Part shown: positions 42,435 through 50,713 of the stretch, in pieces
How the letters are laid out: each line of letters opens with the position of its first letter
Numbering within the stretch: position 1 is the first letter of the stretch
Assembly: GCF_019602855.1 (NCBI RefSeq)
Contig: NZ_CP080767.1
Coordinates: 2,852,001 to 2,916,000, forward strand
Length of the DNA: 64,000 nt
Source of the DNA: Cupriavidus pinatubonensis
GTDB lineage: Bacteria; Pseudomonadota; Gammaproteobacteria; Burkholderiales; Burkholderiaceae
Direction: 5' to 3'
Made by a program: the position numbers and the translations under genes
Notes under the pieces: model-generated
What the model was told of the DNA's origin: nothing
Databases searched by the model: none
The model's input: the letters and a program-made list of their open reading frames with translations, nothing else

Positions 42435-42938
42435 TCAGAGGAAGCGGTCCAGAATCTTGCGGCTGGCCCGGTCCAGCGCCATCAGGTCGCGGATCAGGTA
42501 GTGGATGCCGTGGCTGTCTGAAATCAGCAGCGTGGTGCCCGCCAGGCGGCGGATATCTTCCTCGCCGCGCAGCACCAGCGTGGTCTGGCCGCGGTCGGTC
42601 TGAACGGTCCACTCGCTCGGCGTGGCGAACGTCGACACGCCGACGATGCGTTGGATTTCCGGCATGAACTCGCGCGCAGCCAGTTCTTCTTCCACCATGG
42701 CGCGTTGCGGCGCGGGCAGCCGATCGAGCCGCGGAATCCAGGCCAGTTCATGGCCATCGGTGCTCATCATGCCGATGCCATCATCGGGCGCGCCGATCGG
42801 GAATGCACGCACGGGAACCACGCCCTCATGCGCCGTGCCATCGCCAAGTGTCAGCACCAGGCGGCCGAAGCCATTGCGGGTCAGCGTGAATTCCGTGTCG
42901 GGCATGTCAGCCGCTTGTAGATTGGCATCATTGAGCAT
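42435..42938 (-). CDS. DUF1854 protein (cyanophycin metabolism-associated)
   Basis: A 167-residue protein of the DUF1854 family, which occurs next to cyanophycin synthetase and a dedicated ABC transporter in betaproteobacteria. It shows FTLTRNGFGRLVLTLGDG, VVPVRAFPIGAPDDGIGMMS and RDLMALDRASRKILDRFL. No catalytic motif, signal or membrane helix is visible. Its start overlaps the end of the ABC transporter gene by 11 bases, so it is translated coupled to it. Its role is unknown; a partner of the exporter or of polymer handling is inferred from context. Confidence 0.88.
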   Translation of the reverse strand: MLNDANLQAADMPDTEFTLTRNGFGRLVLTLGDGTAHEGVVPVRAFPIGAPDDGIGMMSTDGHELAWIPRLDRLPAPQRAMVEEELAAREFMPEIQRIVGVSTFATPSEWTVQTDRGQTTLVLRGEEDIRRLAGTTLLISDSHGIHYLIRDLMALDRASRKILDRFL

Positions 42939-45234
42939 TGGCAGCCTCCGCTTCCCTCGCAAGCACCTCGCTTTCGCTCTCGGTGTCGTCGTCCTCGGTA
43001 TCCACATTGCGCGCCTGCGCCTGGTATAGCTTGTAGTAGGCGCCCTCTTTCGCCAGCAGTTCGTCGTGACCGCCGACTTCGACGATCTTGCCGCGGTCCA
43101 TCACCACGAGGCGATCGGCCTTGCGCAGCGTCGAAAGCCGGTGCGCGATCGCGATAGTGGTCCGTCCCTGCACGAGATTGTCGAGCGCCTTCTGGATTTC
43201 CTTCTCCGTCTGCGTGTCGACCGACGACGTGGCCTCGTCCATGATCAGGATGCGCGGATTGATCAGCAGCGCGCGCGCGATCGAAATACGCTGGCGCTCG
43301 CCGCCGGACAGCGCCTGTCCGCGTTCGCCGACCAGCGAGTCATAGCCGTGCGGCAGGCGCAGGATGAACTCATGCGCGTGCGCGGCGCGCGCGGCCGCGA
43401 CGATTTCCTCGCGTGTGGCATCGGGCTTGCCGTAAGCAATATTCTCGGCGATCGTGCCGAAGAACAGGAACGGCTCCTGCAGCACCAGGCCGATATGGCG
43501 ACGGTATTCCGACACCGGCAGCGAGCGGATGTCGATGCCGTCGACACGGATCGCGCCTTCGGACACGTCATAGAAGCGGCAGATCAGGTTGACGAGCGTG
43601 CTCTTGCCCGAGCCGCTGTGACCCACCAGGCCAATCATCTCGCCCGGCGCGATCGACAGATCCAGCCCGCGAATCACCGCGCGGTTACCGTAGCGGAAAC
43701 CGAGGTCGCGCATTTCGATGGCGCCCTCTACCTTGTCCAGCTTTGCCGGCCGCACGGGCTCAGGCACGCTTGATACGTGGTCGAGAATATCGAAGATCCG
43801 CTTCGCGCCGGCCGCGGCCTTCTGCGTGACCGAGACGATGCGGCTCATCGAATCGAGCCGCGTATAAAAGCGGCTGATGTACGTGAGGAAGGCCACCAGC
43901 ACACCGACCGTAATGGCGCTGTGCGACACCTGCCAGATGCCGAACACCCACACCACGAGCAGGCCGATTTCCGTGAGCAGCGTGACGGTCGGCGTGAACA
44001 GCGACCACACCGCATTCACGCGATCGTTGATGGCAAGGTTGTGCTTGTTGGCTTCGCGGAAGCGCGCGACTTCTCGCTTTTCCTGCGCAAACGCCTTGAC
44101 CACGCGGATGCCGGGAATCGTGTCGGCCAGCACATTGGTGATCTCCGACCAGATCCGGTCGATCTTCTCGAAGCCATGGCGCAGCTTGTCGCGCACAAGG
44201 TGGATCATCCAGGCGATGAACGGTAGCGGCACCAGCGTCACGAGCGCGAGCCACGGGTTGATCGACACCAGGATCAACGCGGTCATCACGATCATCAGCA
44301 CGTCGGTCGCGAAGTCGAGCAGGTGCAGCGACAGGAAGACGCAGATGCGGTCACTTTCCGAGCCAATGCGCGCCATCAGGTCGCCCGTACGCTTGCCGCC
44401 GAAATACTCGAGTGACAGCTTCAGCAGATGCTCGTAAGTGGTAGTGCGAAGATCCGCGCCGATGCGTTCCGACACGCGCGCCAGCAGGTAGGTGCGCGCC
44501 CAGCCCAGGCTCCATGCCACCAGCGCCGCACCGAGCAGCCCGGCGAGGTACAGGCGCACCAGGTCGTAGTTGATCGGCACGCCGTTCTGAAACGGGATCA
44601 GCACCTTGTCCATCAGCGGCATGGTCAGGTAAGGCGGTACCAGCGTGGCCGCGGTGGACAGCAGCGTCAGCATGAAGCCAGTGAGCAATTCCCAGCGGTA
44701 CGGGCGTGCAAAACGCCACAGGCGCAGAAGTGCCCATGTCGACGACGGGGTTTCCAGCTCGCGGCTGCACTGCGGGCATTCTTCCTCGCCCGGTGGCAAC
44801 GGTGCCTTGCACGTGGGGCACAGCACTTCGCCGTCATCCTCGGGGACCATGGAAGGGGCCGTATCGCGGCGTGCTTCGAACTGATCCACCAGCCGCAGCG
44901 CGGCGGGATTGTAACCAAGCGTGTAGCGCCAGCTGCCGAGCCGGCCCGCGGCATCGCACAGTTCGAGGGTGCCAACGCCGGCGTGGTCGGTATGGGTCAG
45001 GCGCAGGCCCGGCTCGATGGCCCATTCCCGCACACTTTTTTCACCGGGAGCGCGGGCCAGGAGCCGCCGGTCCGTCACAACCAGCCACCCTTGGGTAAAA
45101 TGCAGCCTCGCGTCGAGGTCGAGTTCCAGTCCAGCCAGAACGGTCTCGCCGGGACGAAGCGTCGCGCCGGCTTCGGCACGCCACGGCTCATCCGGGGCGA
45201 GGCTTTGAGAGACAGGCAGGGAAGACTGGGTCAT
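42928..45234 (-). CDS. ABC exporter with N-terminal zinc ribbon (cyanophycin-associated)
   Basis: A 768-residue half-transporter. Residues about 1-135 are an extra N-terminal region (a beta-rich, PH-like segment: LHFTQGWLVVTDRRLLARA), followed by a zinc ribbon CPTCKAPLPPGEEECPQC (about 139-156), a six-helix ABC exporter membrane domain (about 175-470) and an ATPase: Walker A GLVGHSGSGKST, signature LSGGERQRISIARAL, Walker B RILIMDEATSSVD. The C-terminus is acidic (NVDTEDDDTESESE). It is divergent from cphA. The substrate is unknown; cyanophycin peptides, an assembly lipid or another molecule are all possible. Confidence 0.9.
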   Translation of the reverse strand: MTQSSLPVSQSLAPDEPWRAEAGATLRPGETVLAGLELDLDARLHFTQGWLVVTDRRLLARAPGEKSVREWAIEPGLRLTHTDHAGVGTLELCDAAGRLGSWRYTLGYNPAALRLVDQFEARRDTAPSMVPEDDGEVLCPTCKAPLPPGEEECPQCSRELETPSSTWALLRLWRFARPYRWELLTGFMLTLLSTAATLVPPYLTMPLMDKVLIPFQNGVPINYDLVRLYLAGLLGAALVAWSLGWARTYLLARVSERIGADLRTTTYEHLLKLSLEYFGGKRTGDLMARIGSESDRICVFLSLHLLDFATDVLMIVMTALILVSINPWLALVTLVPLPFIAWMIHLVRDKLRHGFEKIDRIWSEITNVLADTIPGIRVVKAFAQEKREVARFREANKHNLAINDRVNAVWSLFTPTVTLLTEIGLLVVWVFGIWQVSHSAITVGVLVAFLTYISRFYTRLDSMSRIVSVTQKAAAGAKRIFDILDHVSSVPEPVRPAKLDKVEGAIEMRDLGFRYGNRAVIRGLDLSIAPGEMIGLVGHSGSGKSTLVNLICRFYDVSEGAIRVDGIDIRSLPVSEYRRHIGLVLQEPFLFFGTIAENIAYGKPDATREEIVAAARAAHAHEFILRLPHGYDSLVGERGQALSGGERQRISIARALLINPRILIMDEATSSVDTQTEKEIQKALDNLVQGRTTIAIAHRLSTLRKADRLVVMDRGKIVEVGGHDELLAKEGAYYKLYQAQARNVDTEDDDTESESEVLAREAEAANAQ

Positions 45235-45476: not shown

Positions 45477-48113
45477 ATGAAAAAGAAGGACATTGAGATT
45501 TTCGATGTCATGTCGCTGCGCGGCCCGAATATGTGGACATATCGGCCCGTGCTGGAGGCGTGGGTCGATATCGGGGAGCTGGAGGACTTTCCCTCCAACA
45601 CGATTCCGGGGTTCTATGAACGGCTGTCGACGTGGCTGCCCTCGCTAGTCGAGCATCGCTGCAGCATCGGCGAACGCGGCGGCTTCCTGCAGCGCCTCAA
45701 GGAAGGCACGTGGCCGGGTCATATCCTGGAACACGTGACGCTTGAGCTGCAGAACCTGGCTGGCATGCCCGGCGGCTTCGGCAAGGCGCGCGAGACCCCC
45801 ATCCGCGGCGTCTACAAGGTGATCGTGCGCGCCTGGCATGAGGAAGTCACGCGCGCCGCGCTGTTCGCGGCCCGCGACCTGGTCATGGCCGCCATCGAGG
45901 ACCGTCCGTTCGACGTGCCCGCCGCTGTGGACAACCTGCGCCGCCTGGTCGACGAGCACTGCCTCGGCCCGAGCACGGCCTGCATCGTCGATGCCGCGGA
46001 CGACCGCGACATCCCGTCGATCCGCCTGTCCGACGGCAACCTCGTGCAGCTTGGCTACGGCGCGCGCTCGCGCCGTATCTGGACGGCCGAGACCGATCGC
46101 ACCAGCGCCATCGCCGAAAGCATCTCGCGCGACAAGGACCTGACCAAGAGCCTGCTGGAATCGTGCGGCGTGCCGGTGCCGGAAGGCCGCATGGTCGAGT
46201 CGCCCGAAGACGCGTGGGAAGCCGCCGAGGACATCGGGGTGCCGGTGGTGGTCAAGCCGTACGACGGCAACCACGGCCGCGGCGTCTTCACCAACCTGAT
46301 GACGCGCGAGGAAGTCGAGACCGCCTATGCGGTAGCCATCGAGGAAGGCAGCGGGGTCATCGTCGAGCGTTTTGTGCCCGGCAACGAACACCGCCTGCTG
46401 GTAGTGGGCGGCCGCGTGGTCGCCGCCGCGATGGGCGAGACTGCGAGCGTGGTGGGCGACGGCAAGTCGACCATCGAGGAACTGATCGAACTGCAAATCA
46501 ACTCGGATCCGCGCCGTGGCAGCACCGAAGATCATCCGCTGAACCGCGTCCGCCTGGACTCGGCAGCGCGCCTGGAACTCAAGCGCCAGAACATGGATGG
46601 CGAGTCGGTACCTCCGGCAGGCAAGACCGTGCTGATCCAGCGCACCGGCAATGTGGCGTTCGACGTGACCGACCGCGTACACCCCAGCGTGGCCGCTCAT
46701 GCGGCGCTGGCTGCGCGCGTGGTCGGCCTGGACATCGCCGGCGTGGATCTGGTGGCCGAAGACATTTCGCGCCCGCTGACCGACCAGCGCGGGGCCATCG
46801 TCGAAGTCAACGCCGGCCCCGGCCTGCTCATGCACCTCAAGCCGGCCGAAGGCAGGCCGCGCCCGGTGGGCCGCGCCATCGTCGATCACCTGTTCCCCGA
46901 GGCCGACGACACGTATCCCGGCCGCATCCCCGTGGTCGGCATTACCGGCACCAACGGCAAGACCGTGGTGGCCAAGCTGGTCGCGCGCCTGCTGCAACTG
47001 TCGGGCAAGCACACCGGCCTGGCGTGCAGCGACGGCCTGTTCCTGGATCGTCGGCTGGTCCAGGGCGGCGACCGCGCCAACTGGGACGCCGGCCATCGCA
47101 TCCTGATGAACCGTGCGGTCGAAGCCGCCGTGTTCGAGAACGACAGCGGCGCCATCCTGTCCGAAGGTCTCGTCTATGACCGCTGCCAGGTTGGCGTGGT
47201 CACGAACTTCGACACGCCCGACCACATGGGCGATTACTACGTCGAAGACGAAGACCGCATGTACAACGTGCTGCGCACGCAGATCGACGTGGTCCTCAAG
47301 AACGGCGCCGCCGTGCTCAACGCGCGCGACGAGCGCGTGGTCGAAATGGCCGAGCTGTCCGACGGCGACGTGATCTTCTTCGGCCTGTCGGCAGATCTGC
47401 CGGCCATCGTCGCGCATCGCGCCAAGGGCAAGCGCGCGGTATTCGTGCGCGACGGCAAGGTCGTGCTGGCCACCGGCAACAGTGAAACGCCGCTGACCGA
47501 TGTCGCCGCGATTCCGGTGACTTATGCCGGCCGCGTGTCGTTCCAGGTCGAGAACGTGCTGGCGGCCGTCGCTACAGGCTGGGCGCTGGGCATCTCCAAT
47601 GACCTGATCCGCGCCGGCATCGTGACGTTCGACGTCGGCCAGGTCGATGTACCGGGGCGCTTCACGCAGTTCGAGCGCAATGGCGCCACGGTGATCGTGG
47701 ACGATGCGCACAACGCCCCTGCCCTGGAAGCCTTGGCCACGGCTCTGGACCGCTTCCCGGCGGAACGCCGCATGATCGTCTACGGTGCCGGCGTACAACG
47801 CCGCGACGAAGACATGGTCCGCCAGGGCAAGGTCATTGGCGCTACCTTCGACCGCGTGTTCCTGTGCGAGGACCGCAGCGTCAAGGGCGCGCTGCCCGAT
47901 GCCGAGGCGCGCGCCCTGCTCAAGCAGGGGCTGTACGAAGGCCGCCGCGTCACCAAGATCATCGACGAAGGCACGCGCCAGGACGCCATCGAAACCGCGC
48001 TCGGCCAACTGGTGGCCGGCGACCTGCTGGTTCTGCAGTGCGACGAAGGCGCCACCGCCGCCACCGTCGACCGCGTGCACCAGTGGATGGGTCAGCCCCC
48101 GCGCCGCGCCTGA
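45477..48113 (+). CDS. cphA: cyanophycin synthetase (first paralog)
   Basis: An 878-residue three-domain enzyme that makes multi-L-arginyl-poly-L-aspartate. N domain: the zincin-like H82-xx-E85-H86...E90 in GHILEHVTLELQ. ATP-grasp domain: SRDKDLTKSLLES and VPVVVKPYDGNHGRGV with K260. Mur ligase-like domain: GTNGKT at 491-496. The Mur domain departs from the canonical pattern: ENDSGAIL replaces ETARGGIL, NFDTPDHMG replaces NxGExDHLG and DDAHNAPAL replaces DYGHNPDAL. The start ATG at 45477 has no obvious ribosome-binding site. Tandem with a second copy, 29 bases downstream. Confidence 0.93.
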   Translation: MKKKDIEIFDVMSLRGPNMWTYRPVLEAWVDIGELEDFPSNTIPGFYERLSTWLPSLVEHRCSIGERGGFLQRLKEGTWPGHILEHVTLELQNLAGMPGGFGKARETPIRGVYKVIVRAWHEEVTRAALFAARDLVMAAIEDRPFDVPAAVDNLRRLVDEHCLGPSTACIVDAADDRDIPSIRLSDGNLVQLGYGARSRRIWTAETDRTSAIAESISRDKDLTKSLLESCGVPVPEGRMVESPEDAWEAAEDIGVPVVVKPYDGNHGRGVFTNLMTREEVETAYAVAIEEGSGVIVERFVPGNEHRLLVVGGRVVAAAMGETASVVGDGKSTIEELIELQINSDPRRGSTEDHPLNRVRLDSAARLELKRQNMDGESVPPAGKTVLIQRTGNVAFDVTDRVHPSVAAHAALAARVVGLDIAGVDLVAEDISRPLTDQRGAIVEVNAGPGLLMHLKPAEGRPRPVGRAIVDHLFPEADDTYPGRIPVVGITGTNGKTVVAKLVARLLQLSGKHTGLACSDGLFLDRRLVQGGDRANWDAGHRILMNRAVEAAVFENDSGAILSEGLVYDRCQVGVVTNFDTPDHMGDYYVEDEDRMYNVLRTQIDVVLKNGAAVLNARDERVVEMAELSDGDVIFFGLSADLPAIVAHRAKGKRAVFVRDGKVVLATGNSETPLTDVAAIPVTYAGRVSFQVENVLAAVATGWALGISNDLIRAGIVTFDVGQVDVPGRFTQFERNGATVIVDDAHNAPALEALATALDRFPAERRMIVYGAGVQRRDEDMVRQGKVIGATFDRVFLCEDRSVKGALPDAEARALLKQGLYEGRRVTKIIDEGTRQDAIETALGQLVAGDLLVLQCDEGATAATVDRVHQWMGQPPRRA

Positions 48114-48142
48114 CGGCCCAAGAAGAACGGATACCAGAATCT

Positions 48143-50713
48143 ATGGAAGTCTCTCGCATCCGGGCCCTGCGCGGCCCGAACCTGTGGTGCCGCCACACCG
48201 CCGTCGAGGCGATCGTGGCCTGTCCGGAGCCGTCGGACATGGTCGCTACCCTGCCCGGCTTTGAAGACCGCCTGCGCGCGCGCTTTCCCGATATCGGCCC
48301 GCTGCATCCGGACGAGGACGCCGGCGAGCTGTCGCTCGCGCACGTGCTCGAAGCCGCCACGCTGCGCCTGCAGGCCGCGGCCGGCTGCCCGGTCACGTTC
48401 AGCCGCACGGCGCAGACGGTCGAGCCCGGCACCTACCAGGTGATCGTGCAATACAGCGAGGAAGAAGTCGGCCGCCTGGCGTTCGACCTGGCCCAGGCGC
48501 TGTGCCTGGCCGCGCGCGATGACGCGCCCTTCGACCTTGATGACGCGTTGCACCGCCTGCGCGAACTCGATGAAGACGTGCGCCTCGGCCCCAGCACGGG
48601 CTCGATCGTCTACGCAGCCGTCGCGCGGGGTATTCCCTACCGCCGCCTGACCCAAGGTTCGATGGTGCAGTTTGGTTGGGGCAGCAAGCAGCGCCGCATC
48701 CAGGCCGCCGAAACCAGCGCCACCAGCGCTGTCGCCGAATCCATCGCGCAGGACAAGGAACTGACCAAGAGCCTGTTGCACGCGGCCGGCGTACCCGTGC
48801 CGCTGGGCCGTTCGGTGCGCAGCGCCGAGCAAGCCTGGGAAGCCGCGCAGGAAATCGACGCACCTGTCGTGGTGAAGCCGCGCGACGGCAACCAAGGCAA
48901 GGGCGTGGCCGTGCGCATCCGCACGCGCGAGGAAGTGATGACGGCGTACGAAGTCGCGTCCGACATCAGCTCCGACGTGATCGTCGAACGCTACATCCCG
49001 GGCCACGATTTCCGCCTGCTGGTAGTCGGCAAGCACCTCGTCGCCGCCGCGCGCCGCGATCCGCCGCAAGTGATCGGCGATGGCACGCATACGGTGCGCC
49101 AGCTCGTCGAGGAAGTGAACCGCGACCCGCGCCGCGGCGAGGGCCATGCGACGTCGCTGACCAAGATCCGTTTTGACGACATCGCGCTCGCCACGCTGGC
49201 CAAGCAAGGCTTGACCGCGGAGTCTGTGCCGCCCAAGGGCACGCGTGTAGTCCTGCGCAACAACGCGAACCTGTCGACCGGCGGCAGCGCCACCGACGTG
49301 ACCGACGACGTCCATCCGGACATCGCCGCGCGCGCCGTCGCCGCTGCACAGATGGTCGGCCTCGACATCGCCGGCGTGGACGCCGTGTGCGAGACCATGC
49401 TGAAGCCGTTCGAGGAACAGGCCGGCGGCATCGTCGAAGTCAATGCCGCGCCAGGCCTGCGCATGCACCTGCAGCCGTCATACGGCAAGGGCCGCGCAGT
49501 CGGCGAAGCGATCGTATCGACCATGTTTGCCGATGGCGACGATGGCCGCATTCCTGTGGTCGCGGTATCGGGCACCAACGGCAAGACCACCACGGTCCGC
49601 CTGATCACGCACATCATGGCCACGAGCGGCCTGCGCATGGGCATGACCGGCACCGACGGCGTGTACATCCGTGGCGAGCGCATCGACACCGGCGACTGCA
49701 GCGGCCCGCGCAGCGCGCGCAACGTGCTGCTGCACCCTGACGTCGACGCGGCCGTGTTCGAAACCGCGCGCGGCGGCCTGCTGCGCGAAGGCCTGGCCTT
49801 CGACCGCTGCGACGTTGCCGTGGTGACCAACGTCGGTGAAGGCGACCACCTGGGCCTGTCCTTCATCAGCACGGTGGAAGACCTGGCCGTGCTCAAGAGC
49901 GTGATCGTGCAGAACGTGGCGCCTCACGGCATGGCCGTGCTCAACGCCGCGGATCCGATGGTGGTGCGCATGGCTGATGCCTGCCCGGGCCTGGTGACCT
50001 TCTTCGCGCACGACCCGGGCCAGCCGGCCATGGCTACGCACCGTGCCCAGGGCAAGCGCGTGGTGTTCGTCGACGGCGATCACATCGTGGCGTCGGAAGG
50101 CGACAACGAAATGCGCATCCCGCTGGCCGAGATCCCGCTCACGCGCAATGGCACGATCGGCTTCCAGGTCGAGAACGCCATGTCGTCGATCGGCGCGGCG
50201 TGGGCGCTCGGCATCGACTGGAACGTCATCCGCCGCGGCCTGGCTACCTTCGTCAACGACGCGCAGACGGCCCCGGGACGCTTCAACGTGTTCGACTACC
50301 GTGGCGCGACGCTGATTGCTGACTACGGCCACAACCCGGATGCCATCCAGGCGCTGTGCAATGCCGTGCAGACCATGCCGGCCAAACGCCGGCTGGTGGT
50401 GATCAGCGGCGCGGGCGACCGCCGCGACGAGGATATCCGCAAGCAGACGCAGATCCTCGGCGGCGTGTTCGACGAGGTCATCCTGTACCAGGACCAGTGC
50501 CAGCGCGGCCGCGCCGATGGCGAGGTGCTGGCGCTGCTGCGCGAGGGCCTGCAAGGTGCCACGCGTACCAGTGCGGTCGAGGAGATTCGCGGTGAGTTCG
50601 TCGCCATCGACACGGGTCTGTCGCATTTGCAGCCGGGTGACCTGTGCCTGATCCTGGTGGATCAGGTCGATGAAGCACTCGCGCATATCGCCGGGCGCGT
50701 CGCGCAGGGTTAA
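48143..50713 (+). CDS. cphA': cyanophycin synthetase (second paralog, CphA')
   Basis: An 856-residue CphA homolog with ATP-grasp (VVVKPRDGNQGKGV, K245) and Mur ligase-like (GTNGKT 477-482, FETARGGLLREGLAFDRCD, NVGEGDHLGL, DYGHNPDAIQ) domains fully canonical. In the N domain the aligned segment is HVLEAATLRLQ (from H67), so the second His and the last Glu of the HxxEH...E motif of the first copy are Ala71 and Arg75. It starts 29 bases after cphA and ends before a strong terminator, so both form one transcript. Tandem CphA pairs are known in Cupriavidus. Confidence 0.93.
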   Translation: MEVSRIRALRGPNLWCRHTAVEAIVACPEPSDMVATLPGFEDRLRARFPDIGPLHPDEDAGELSLAHVLEAATLRLQAAAGCPVTFSRTAQTVEPGTYQVIVQYSEEEVGRLAFDLAQALCLAARDDAPFDLDDALHRLRELDEDVRLGPSTGSIVYAAVARGIPYRRLTQGSMVQFGWGSKQRRIQAAETSATSAVAESIAQDKELTKSLLHAAGVPVPLGRSVRSAEQAWEAAQEIDAPVVVKPRDGNQGKGVAVRIRTREEVMTAYEVASDISSDVIVERYIPGHDFRLLVVGKHLVAAARRDPPQVIGDGTHTVRQLVEEVNRDPRRGEGHATSLTKIRFDDIALATLAKQGLTAESVPPKGTRVVLRNNANLSTGGSATDVTDDVHPDIAARAVAAAQMVGLDIAGVDAVCETMLKPFEEQAGGIVEVNAAPGLRMHLQPSYGKGRAVGEAIVSTMFADGDDGRIPVVAVSGTNGKTTTVRLITHIMATSGLRMGMTGTDGVYIRGERIDTGDCSGPRSARNVLLHPDVDAAVFETARGGLLREGLAFDRCDVAVVTNVGEGDHLGLSFISTVEDLAVLKSVIVQNVAPHGMAVLNAADPMVVRMADACPGLVTFFAHDPGQPAMATHRAQGKRVVFVDGDHIVASEGDNEMRIPLAEIPLTRNGTIGFQVENAMSSIGAAWALGIDWNVIRRGLATFVNDAQTAPGRFNVFDYRGATLIADYGHNPDAIQALCNAVQTMPAKRRLVVISGAGDRRDEDIRKQTQILGGVFDEVILYQDQCQRGRADGEVLALLREGLQGATRTSAVEEIRGEFVAIDTGLSHLQPGDLCLILVDQVDEALAHIAGRVAQG

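Follow-up and report, generated by a model that had tools for sequence, protein, structure and literature searches.

Two adjacent CphA genes in Cupriavidus pinatubonensis

We analysed a window of 64,000 nucleotides from Cupriavidus pinatubonensis (contig NZ_CP080767.1, positions 2,852,001 to 2,916,000 of the forward strand), which contains two adjacent genes of the cyanophycin synthetase (CphA) family, called copy 1 (upstream) and copy 2 (downstream) below. The stop codon of copy 1 and the start codon of copy 2 are 29 bases apart, and in a profile search both proteins passed NCBIfam cut-offs for cyanophycin synthetase. Residue roles were read off by aligning both copies to the CphA1 of Synechocystis (SuCphA1), whose numbering is used unless a residue is assigned to a copy. 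In the N domain of SuCphA1, Cys59, His79, Glu82 and His83 form a metallopeptidase-like, primer-making site (PMC9262961), and the incoming aspartate is held in the G domain by Arg323, Asn394, Ser396 and Arg458, of which Arg323 reads the beta-carboxylate (PMC9427784). The published G-null mutation is H267A and the published M-null enzyme is changed at Asp585 and His586 (PMC9262961). The features of the two genes, in window coordinates, are as follows.

45477..48113, + strand: copy 1, the upstream CphA, 878 amino acids; N site intact, G-domain Asp-recognition residues lost, M signatures rewritten
45654..45683, + strand: HRCSIGERGG in copy 1; His60 and Cys62 align with SuCphA1 His57 and the metal ligand Cys59 (function from PMC9262961)
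45720..45752, + strand: HILEHVTLELQ, copy 1 residues 82-92 (H82, E85, H86, E90); HxxEH metallopeptidase-like motif and Glu90
46263..46283, + strand: DGNHGRG in copy 1; P-loop of the G domain, with His266 (SuCphA1 His267) kept
46428..46454, + strand: AMGETASVV in copy 1; Gly at the equivalent of Arg323 (role of Arg323 from PMC9427784)
46635..46664, + strand: IQRTGNVAFD in copy 1; site of a five-residue deletion, the STGG part of the Asp-binding loop being gone
46815..46835, + strand: GPGLLMH in copy 1; Leu at the equivalent of Arg458
47136..47153, + strand: ENDSGA, copy 1 residues 554-559; M domain, in place of ETARGG
47700..47717, + strand: DDAHNA, copy 1 residues 742-747; M lid, in place of DYGHNP
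48143..50713, + strand: copy 2, the downstream CphA, 856 amino acids counted from its ATG; with an incomplete N site, a canonical G-domain Asp site and M domain, and Gln in place of His267
48302..48373, + strand: degenerate N site of copy 2 (LHPDEDAGELS...HVLEAATLRLQ); it lacks the Cys, the second His and the last Glu, and its loop is shorter
48884..48904, + strand: DGNQGKG in copy 2; Gln251 at the equivalent of His267
49760..49777, + strand: ETARGG, copy 2 residues 540-545; canonical M-domain signature

A first-pass annotation of this DNA, made from the letters alone, had described the N motif as intact in copy 1 and broken in copy 2. The motifs it quoted are present at the residues given, among them NFDTPDHMG (copy 1 residues 577-585) with its counterpart NVGEGDHLG (copy 2 residues 563-571), HVLEAATLRLQ (copy 2 residues 67-77, with Ala71 and Arg75) and DYGHNP (copy 2 residues 727-732). 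The alignment to SuCphA1 places the N motif on the published site, of which copy 1 (Cx19HxxEH) retains all four residues and copy 2 two. The third metal ligand, Cys62 in copy 1, is lost from copy 2 together with part of its loop.

The G and M domains differ from what the annotation had proposed, which was that copy 1 makes primers and copy 2 adds arginine. The comparison gives good support to a division of labour that assigns the primer-making site to copy 1, but the opposition of primers to arginine was mistaken, as aspartate recognition is lost from copy 1 too. Here Arg323 is replaced by Gly, Ser396 falls in the five-residue deletion, Arg458 is replaced by Leu and only Asn394 aligns, while the residues for adenosine triphosphate (ATP) and Arg309 are kept. 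On these residues copy 1 should not add aspartate, and copy 2 should therefore perform both the aspartate and the arginine additions. The annotation had also called the Mur signatures of copy 1 altered. ENDSGA and DDAHNA do indeed depart from ETARGG and DYxHNP, but the nucleotide site of the M domain is retained, with equivalents of K499, T500, E558, D585, H586, R731 and H748 all present and T522 replaced by Ser, as it also is in 39 of the 160 downstream copies described below. The losses of Arg323, Ser396 and Arg458 from copy 1, its kept M-domain ATP residues and the Gln at position 267 of copy 2 had all been overlooked. Since D585 and H586, the residues changed in the M-null enzyme, are present, a loss of function argued from the Mur motifs alone is weaker than it appears. 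We rejected the idea that the M domain of copy 1 is dead through its ATP site in the window, where K499, T500, E558, D585 and H586 are all present; arginine addition was probably lost in copy 1 of this lineage, as judged from the rewritten signature.

Copy 2 fits the primer-dependent type of CphA1, with its G-domain Asp site and M signatures intact and its N site incomplete. All four of its Asp-recognition residues are kept, and position 267 is Gln. A structure model of copy 2 was weak (mean predicted local distance difference test score, pLDDT, 69.6); its top matches were CphA1 chains at a root mean square deviation of 15 to 18 Å, and it supports the fold by domain only.

A reciprocal pattern of active sites in paired genes

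Related loci came from two sources: 80 were matched by the motifs of copy 1 itself (the best 80 of 157 stretches, a sample that leans towards copy 1) and 120 stretches were found with a general family profile. After the profile searches we fetched all 75 other order-sample genomes with matches and, from further sets, all 17 others, 26 of 28 and 15 of 27. This gave 160 adjacent pairs (78 motif-found and 82 profile-found loci, some from the same species; 152 non-identical), with genes classed as upstream or downstream by position alone, and a distinct set of 87 pairs at under 90% identity of the upstream copy. Broken or partial genes (L061, L126, L182, L183), two divergent loci (L196, L197) and two extra copies at L142 in genome G056 were dropped before counting, and nine separated pair members enter no pair count.

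Every one of the 160 upstream copies has C59, H79, E82 and H83, and every one also has H57, F67, R70 and E87. By contrast R323, S396 and R458 are each found in none of them, nor is the complete set of four Asp residues or the ARGG motif. The G-domain changes are fixed, R323 being Gly in 157 of 160 and R458 Leu in 158, with the loop deleted in all. The G-domain residues for ATP and polymer were kept (K220 in 159, K261 in 160, R309 in 160, D431 in 159 and E450 in 158 of 160). In the downstream copies the N site is complete in 0 of 160, although two carry three of its four residues, and all four Asp-recognition residues, ARGG and the lid are each present in 160 of 160. The reciprocal pattern held in all 87 distinct pairs and in every one of the 62 adjacent pairs from the order sample, which were found with the general family profile, confirming that it is real, lineage-wide and not due to chance. 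Position 267 is not strictly reciprocal: His is kept in 155 of 160 upstream copies and Gln is found in 156 of 160 downstream copies, leaving five upstream copies without His and four downstream copies with it, and pairs L210 and L211 belong to both groups. Simple decay of copy 1 was rejected as an explanation, as its N and G domains are conserved and the G changes are fixed rather than random.

The M domain of the upstream copies is more varied. Arg and Asp occupy positions 603 and 607, where the M domain contacts polymer at the N site, in all 160, but the Mcore is otherwise the most divergent part, with a mean pairwise identity of 0.484 over the 87 pairs. The lid is present in 75 of 160 upstream copies, all of which retain K499, T500, E558, D585 and H586, and one or more of these five residues are changed in 84 of the 85 copies whose lid is not full; in 83 of the 160 little of the lid is left (fewer than 30 of its 98 positions). 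On a quick tree of the upstream copies (85 sequences), parsimony requires the lid state to change four times, and the branches starred on that tree force two of these changes. In the lineage of the window the M domain was thus rewritten, not dismantled.

A further 35 rows lack an intact adjacent partner. In 26 of these the N and Asp sites are complete in one protein, always with ARGG; two of them, L218 and L219, have four of the five M-core residues. The other nine look like members of separated pairs, six of upstream and three of downstream type; the partner lies on a different contig, is truncated where its contig stops, or is a broken gene. Among the 76 cphA-bearing genomes of the order sample, 69 were sorted as pair-type and both members were seen, whole or partial, in 68; in the remaining one (G030) the contig stops about 500 bases past the upstream gene.

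Upstream of the pair in the window lie two genes on the opposite strand:

42435..43007, - strand: DUF1854 protein, NCBIfam NF052234, cyanophycin metabolism-associated (238.5 bits against a cut-off of 150)
42928..45234, - strand: ATP-binding cassette (ABC) transporter, NCBIfam NF052233, cyanophycin metabolism-associated (1462 bits against a cut-off of 880)

Close relatives of this transporter occur in the fetched flanks of 80 of the 87 distinct pairs and the DUF1854 protein in those of 79, and only one of the 26 single-copy loci, L220, has both neighbours. In a phylum sample of 398 genomes the transporter family occurs in 21, which are the 20 pair genomes and the genome of L220.

In a tree of the G domain the upstream copies form one clade (support 100/99) and the downstream copies another (94/74). 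The pairs and L220 together are separated from the remaining CphA1 of the tree (100/99.7), and a larger quick tree agrees. The tree that gave these support values used 24 of 54 pairs and the window, with the long-branch rows L198 and L210 (upstream) and L199 and L219 (single) left out. These trees support the view that one duplication gave rise to the pairs. L220 (genome G729) lies outside the order and encodes a single CphA with all three sites and Gln267, with the transporter and DUF1854 genes as neighbours, the contig ending inside the CphA gene itself; with all sites, Gln267 and both neighbours, it may possibly represent the form that existed before the duplication. A tree with the pairs as a single clade and L220 outside was not rejected (approximately unbiased test, p-AU 0.548). 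A transporter-family search of L220's order for a second genome of its type returned 1 of 48 genomes, its own. At the level of comparison, these results establish which residues are kept and lost in the pairs examined, the single duplication and the conserved linkage.

The ratio of non-synonymous to synonymous change (dN/dS), taken as sums over all sequence pairs and uncorrected for relatedness, follows the same division in 34 Cupriavidus-type pairs. For the upstream copies it was 0.108 in the N domain, 0.137 in G, 0.214 in Mcore and 0.248 in Mlid, and for the downstream copies 0.188, 0.092, 0.137 and 0.124 respectively, so that the order of the domains is reciprocal between the copies.

A proposed two-subunit synthetase and its alternatives

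We think it probable that the two genes encode a natural cyanophycin synthetase of two subunits, with copy 1 cutting the primers that a primer-dependent copy 2 extends. An ancestral three-site CphA1 would have been duplicated and become a two-gene synthetase. Copy 2 would be the polymerase, its G domain adding aspartate and its M domain arginine, and with no N site it would depend on primers. Copy 1 would be a catalytically narrowed subunit whose metallopeptidase-like N site cuts nascent polymer into short primers, and whose G domain would bind ATP and polymer yet be unable to hold an incoming aspartate. We infer activity of the kept N site, a loss of synthesis by copy 1, contact between the two proteins and cyanophycin as the product. 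A hetero-oligomer of both copies, as the first-pass annotation had suggested, would be plausible.

SuCphA1 with G, M or both inactivated turns the primer-dependent Tatumella enzyme (TmCphA1) primer-independent in trans (PMC9262961). Copy 1 resembles a naturally occurring form of the doubly inactivated SuCphA1, and copy 2 resembles the primer-dependent enzyme. In the CphA1 of Synechocystis and of Trichodesmium (TeCphA1) the three sites are found in one protein, whereas here the N site and the Asp and Arg sites are in separate genes. TmCphA1 and, by residues, the Acinetobacter enzyme AbCphA1 resemble copy 2 in having no complete N site and intact G and M residues; the TmCphA1 sequence compared here begins only after residue 60, and that the enzyme lacks all four N residues is taken from PMC9262961. 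Both enzymes keep His267, unlike copy 2.

Several observations weigh against this reading. The homologs of R. eutropha H16, overexpressed or in E. coli, gave no cyanophycin according to one review (PMC8560796), and another reports none in the wild type (PMC11362209). If the H16 genes were expressed singly the failure is allowed by the model; if together, it would count against it or point to another product. Copy 2 has Gln267, as do 156 of 160 downstream copies, at the position of the published G-null mutation H267A. However, a dead G domain in copy 2 was judged unlikely, as this is its slowest-evolving domain in both genera tested (Cupriavidus-type and Pandoraea), and Gln is also found in an annotated N-acetylglutaminylglutamine (NAGGN) synthetase and in L220, where the other tested sites are intact. 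The recurrence of Gln267 in downstream copies and in the NAGGN synthetase led us not to read it as inactivating. Among 13 Pandoraea pairs, the N domain of the downstream copy has a dN/dS of 0.046, a constraint similar to that on its G domain and lid, which counts against a simple story of relaxation. Four of the 87 distinct pairs are without the transporter despite at least 5 kb of flank on both sides (seven lack it in all). Finally, the mean pairwise identity of the G domain over the 87 pairs is 0.674 upstream against 0.717 downstream. We prefer this figure to a mean column identity of 82% in the G domain of upstream copies, which was drawn from 10 of 14 sequences, divergent ones being among the four omitted. 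The G domain of copy 1 is thus conserved almost as strongly as its counterpart in copy 2, and does something that the model leaves unexplained. In the upstream copies its ATP, Mg and polymer-carboxylate residues are kept, and it probably binds ATP and chain ends for assembly or control, which is the weakest part of the model.

One use of such a G domain would be regulatory, copy 1 being a structural or ATP-sensing subunit whose N site is conserved mainly to bind polymer and not to cut it. The kept ATP and polymer residues (K220, K261, R309, D431 and E450), the missing Asp site and the conservation of the domain would all suit this, but binding would not obviously need a general base Glu and three metal ligands, which all 160 upstream copies have, and we consider this very unlikely. 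It is also highly doubtful that copy 1 is a CphA2-like ligase, which uses its G domain to link beta-Asp-Arg units or fragments rather than free aspartate and whose unneeded M domain is degrading. CphA2 is without the M P-loop and Mlid (PMC9427784), and many upstream copies resemble it, with no lid and a broken M-core site (84 of the 85 without a full lid). Copy 1 also keeps the G-domain ATP residues and Arg309, with His267 in most upstream copies, and the loss of Arg323 and part of the pocket loop could admit a larger unit. On the other hand the N motif is described as absent from CphA2 (PMC9262961) and is universal among upstream copies, and copy 1 itself has the N motif, the M P-loop and Mlid, so that neither absence is found in it. 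Annotated ligases that act on different acceptors, namely a NAGGN synthetase, a GshAB query and two solved GshAB chains, retain Arg323 and an N..TGG loop, a hint that ligation fails without these features. When fitted to the profile, CphA2 spans 318 residues against 311 profile positions of copy 1, and CphA2 therefore probably keeps the loop. Together these points lower a CphA2-like function as an explanation.

The distribution of cyanophycinase raises a different set of alternatives. In the phylum sample the model TIGR02069 exceeded its cut-off in all eight other single-copy genomes, those without the transporter, in 0 of 1 for the genome of L220 and in one of the 20 pair genomes. That one, G056, has one match beside its extra non-pair CphA locus and a second elsewhere. 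The genome of the window gave no match to this cyanophycinase model, which would miss cyanophycinases of other kinds; its two Peptidase_S51 matches are a strong one, PepE, and one that is weak and partial. Copy 1 might then be the depolymerase, an N-domain endo-cyanophycinase that mobilises stored polymer while copy 2 self-starts or uses leftover fragments. We regard this as quite unlikely, as the N activity described in PMC9262961 is slow and its products are mainly four-unit fragments, and nothing shown to process such fragments was found in the pair loci. Somewhat less improbable is that the pair is misnamed and produces a different Asp-based polymer or oligomer in place of ordinary cyanophycin, which would be compatible with the split of labour. 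Linkage to the transporter and DUF1854 protein in place of cyanophycinase, the reports that the H16 genes gave no cyanophycin and the Gln267 of downstream copies favour it, but the four Asp-recognition residues and ARGG in every downstream copy speak against it. A version of this that we think unlikely is that the system does not serve storage: copy 2 would build an Asp-based chain, the N domain of copy 1 would cut it to set lengths, and the transporter and DUF1854 protein would handle the oligomers. If true, this would explain both the missing cyanophycinase and the reported lack of cyanophycin from the H16 genes.

Pairs of CphA and CphA-prime have reportedly been the subject of earlier work. 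The Group 1 cphA cluster of activated-sludge bacteria (PMC10687191), with two cphA genes, an ABC transporter and no cphB, is very probably this system; the section that describes it makes no active-site comparison and proposes a composite transposon. The families NF052233 (CphA_assoc_ABC) and NF052234 (CphA_assoc_prot) name only the neighbours and are silent on the split between synthetases. A search of literature titles and abstracts, with most subscription papers outside its scope, found no description of a reciprocal active-site split between paired CphA, and the words Proteobacteria, paralog, two genes and operon are all absent from the main text of PMC9262961.

CphA1 has been reported as a polymerase with its own primer-making site, about a fifth of the enzymes being without it and taken as primer-dependent (PMC9262961). 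Here the primer-making site would be in a separate gene, so that 'cyanophycin synthetase' annotations may cover proteins that are not synthetases, and copies called primer-dependent may have their partner in the adjoining gene. In a survey (PMC10206079), 903 of 1,614 CphA1-encoding complete genomes were beta-proteobacterial, and 2.8% of the 903 had a recognizable cyanophycinase. If most of the 903 hold the pair, more than half of the CphA1 genomes would need re-reading. The split may also account for the lack of polymer from the H16 genes, and would offer a tunable two-part system for polymer production.

Further CphA-like loci

At L142 (G056) two extra, divergently placed CphA genes accompany a standard pair; their N sites are incomplete, G and M are intact and position 267 is Gln, and a cyanophycinase gene adjoins them. 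The divergent CphA-like loci L196 and L197 have no recognisable N site, with Asn at SuCphA1 position 585 and Asp at 748, and do not fit the pair pattern. In L061 and L126 the pair genes are broken into separate open frames, through either sequencing error or decay.

An open frame of 561-618 amino acids that matches the M domain of cyanophycin synthetase adjoins 15 of the 26 single-copy loci, and a longer one is found in L163. The M-domain-like frames lie at L216 (4078-5838, - strand), L135, L169, L179, L194, L200-L202, L205, L207-L209, L214, L215 and L217, and a frame of this kind in L245 (8306-10111) is annotated as a Mur ligase family protein. In the window, the ABC transporter (42928-45234, - strand) has an N-terminal extension with a CPTC...CPQC zinc-ribbon-like motif ahead of its membrane domain.

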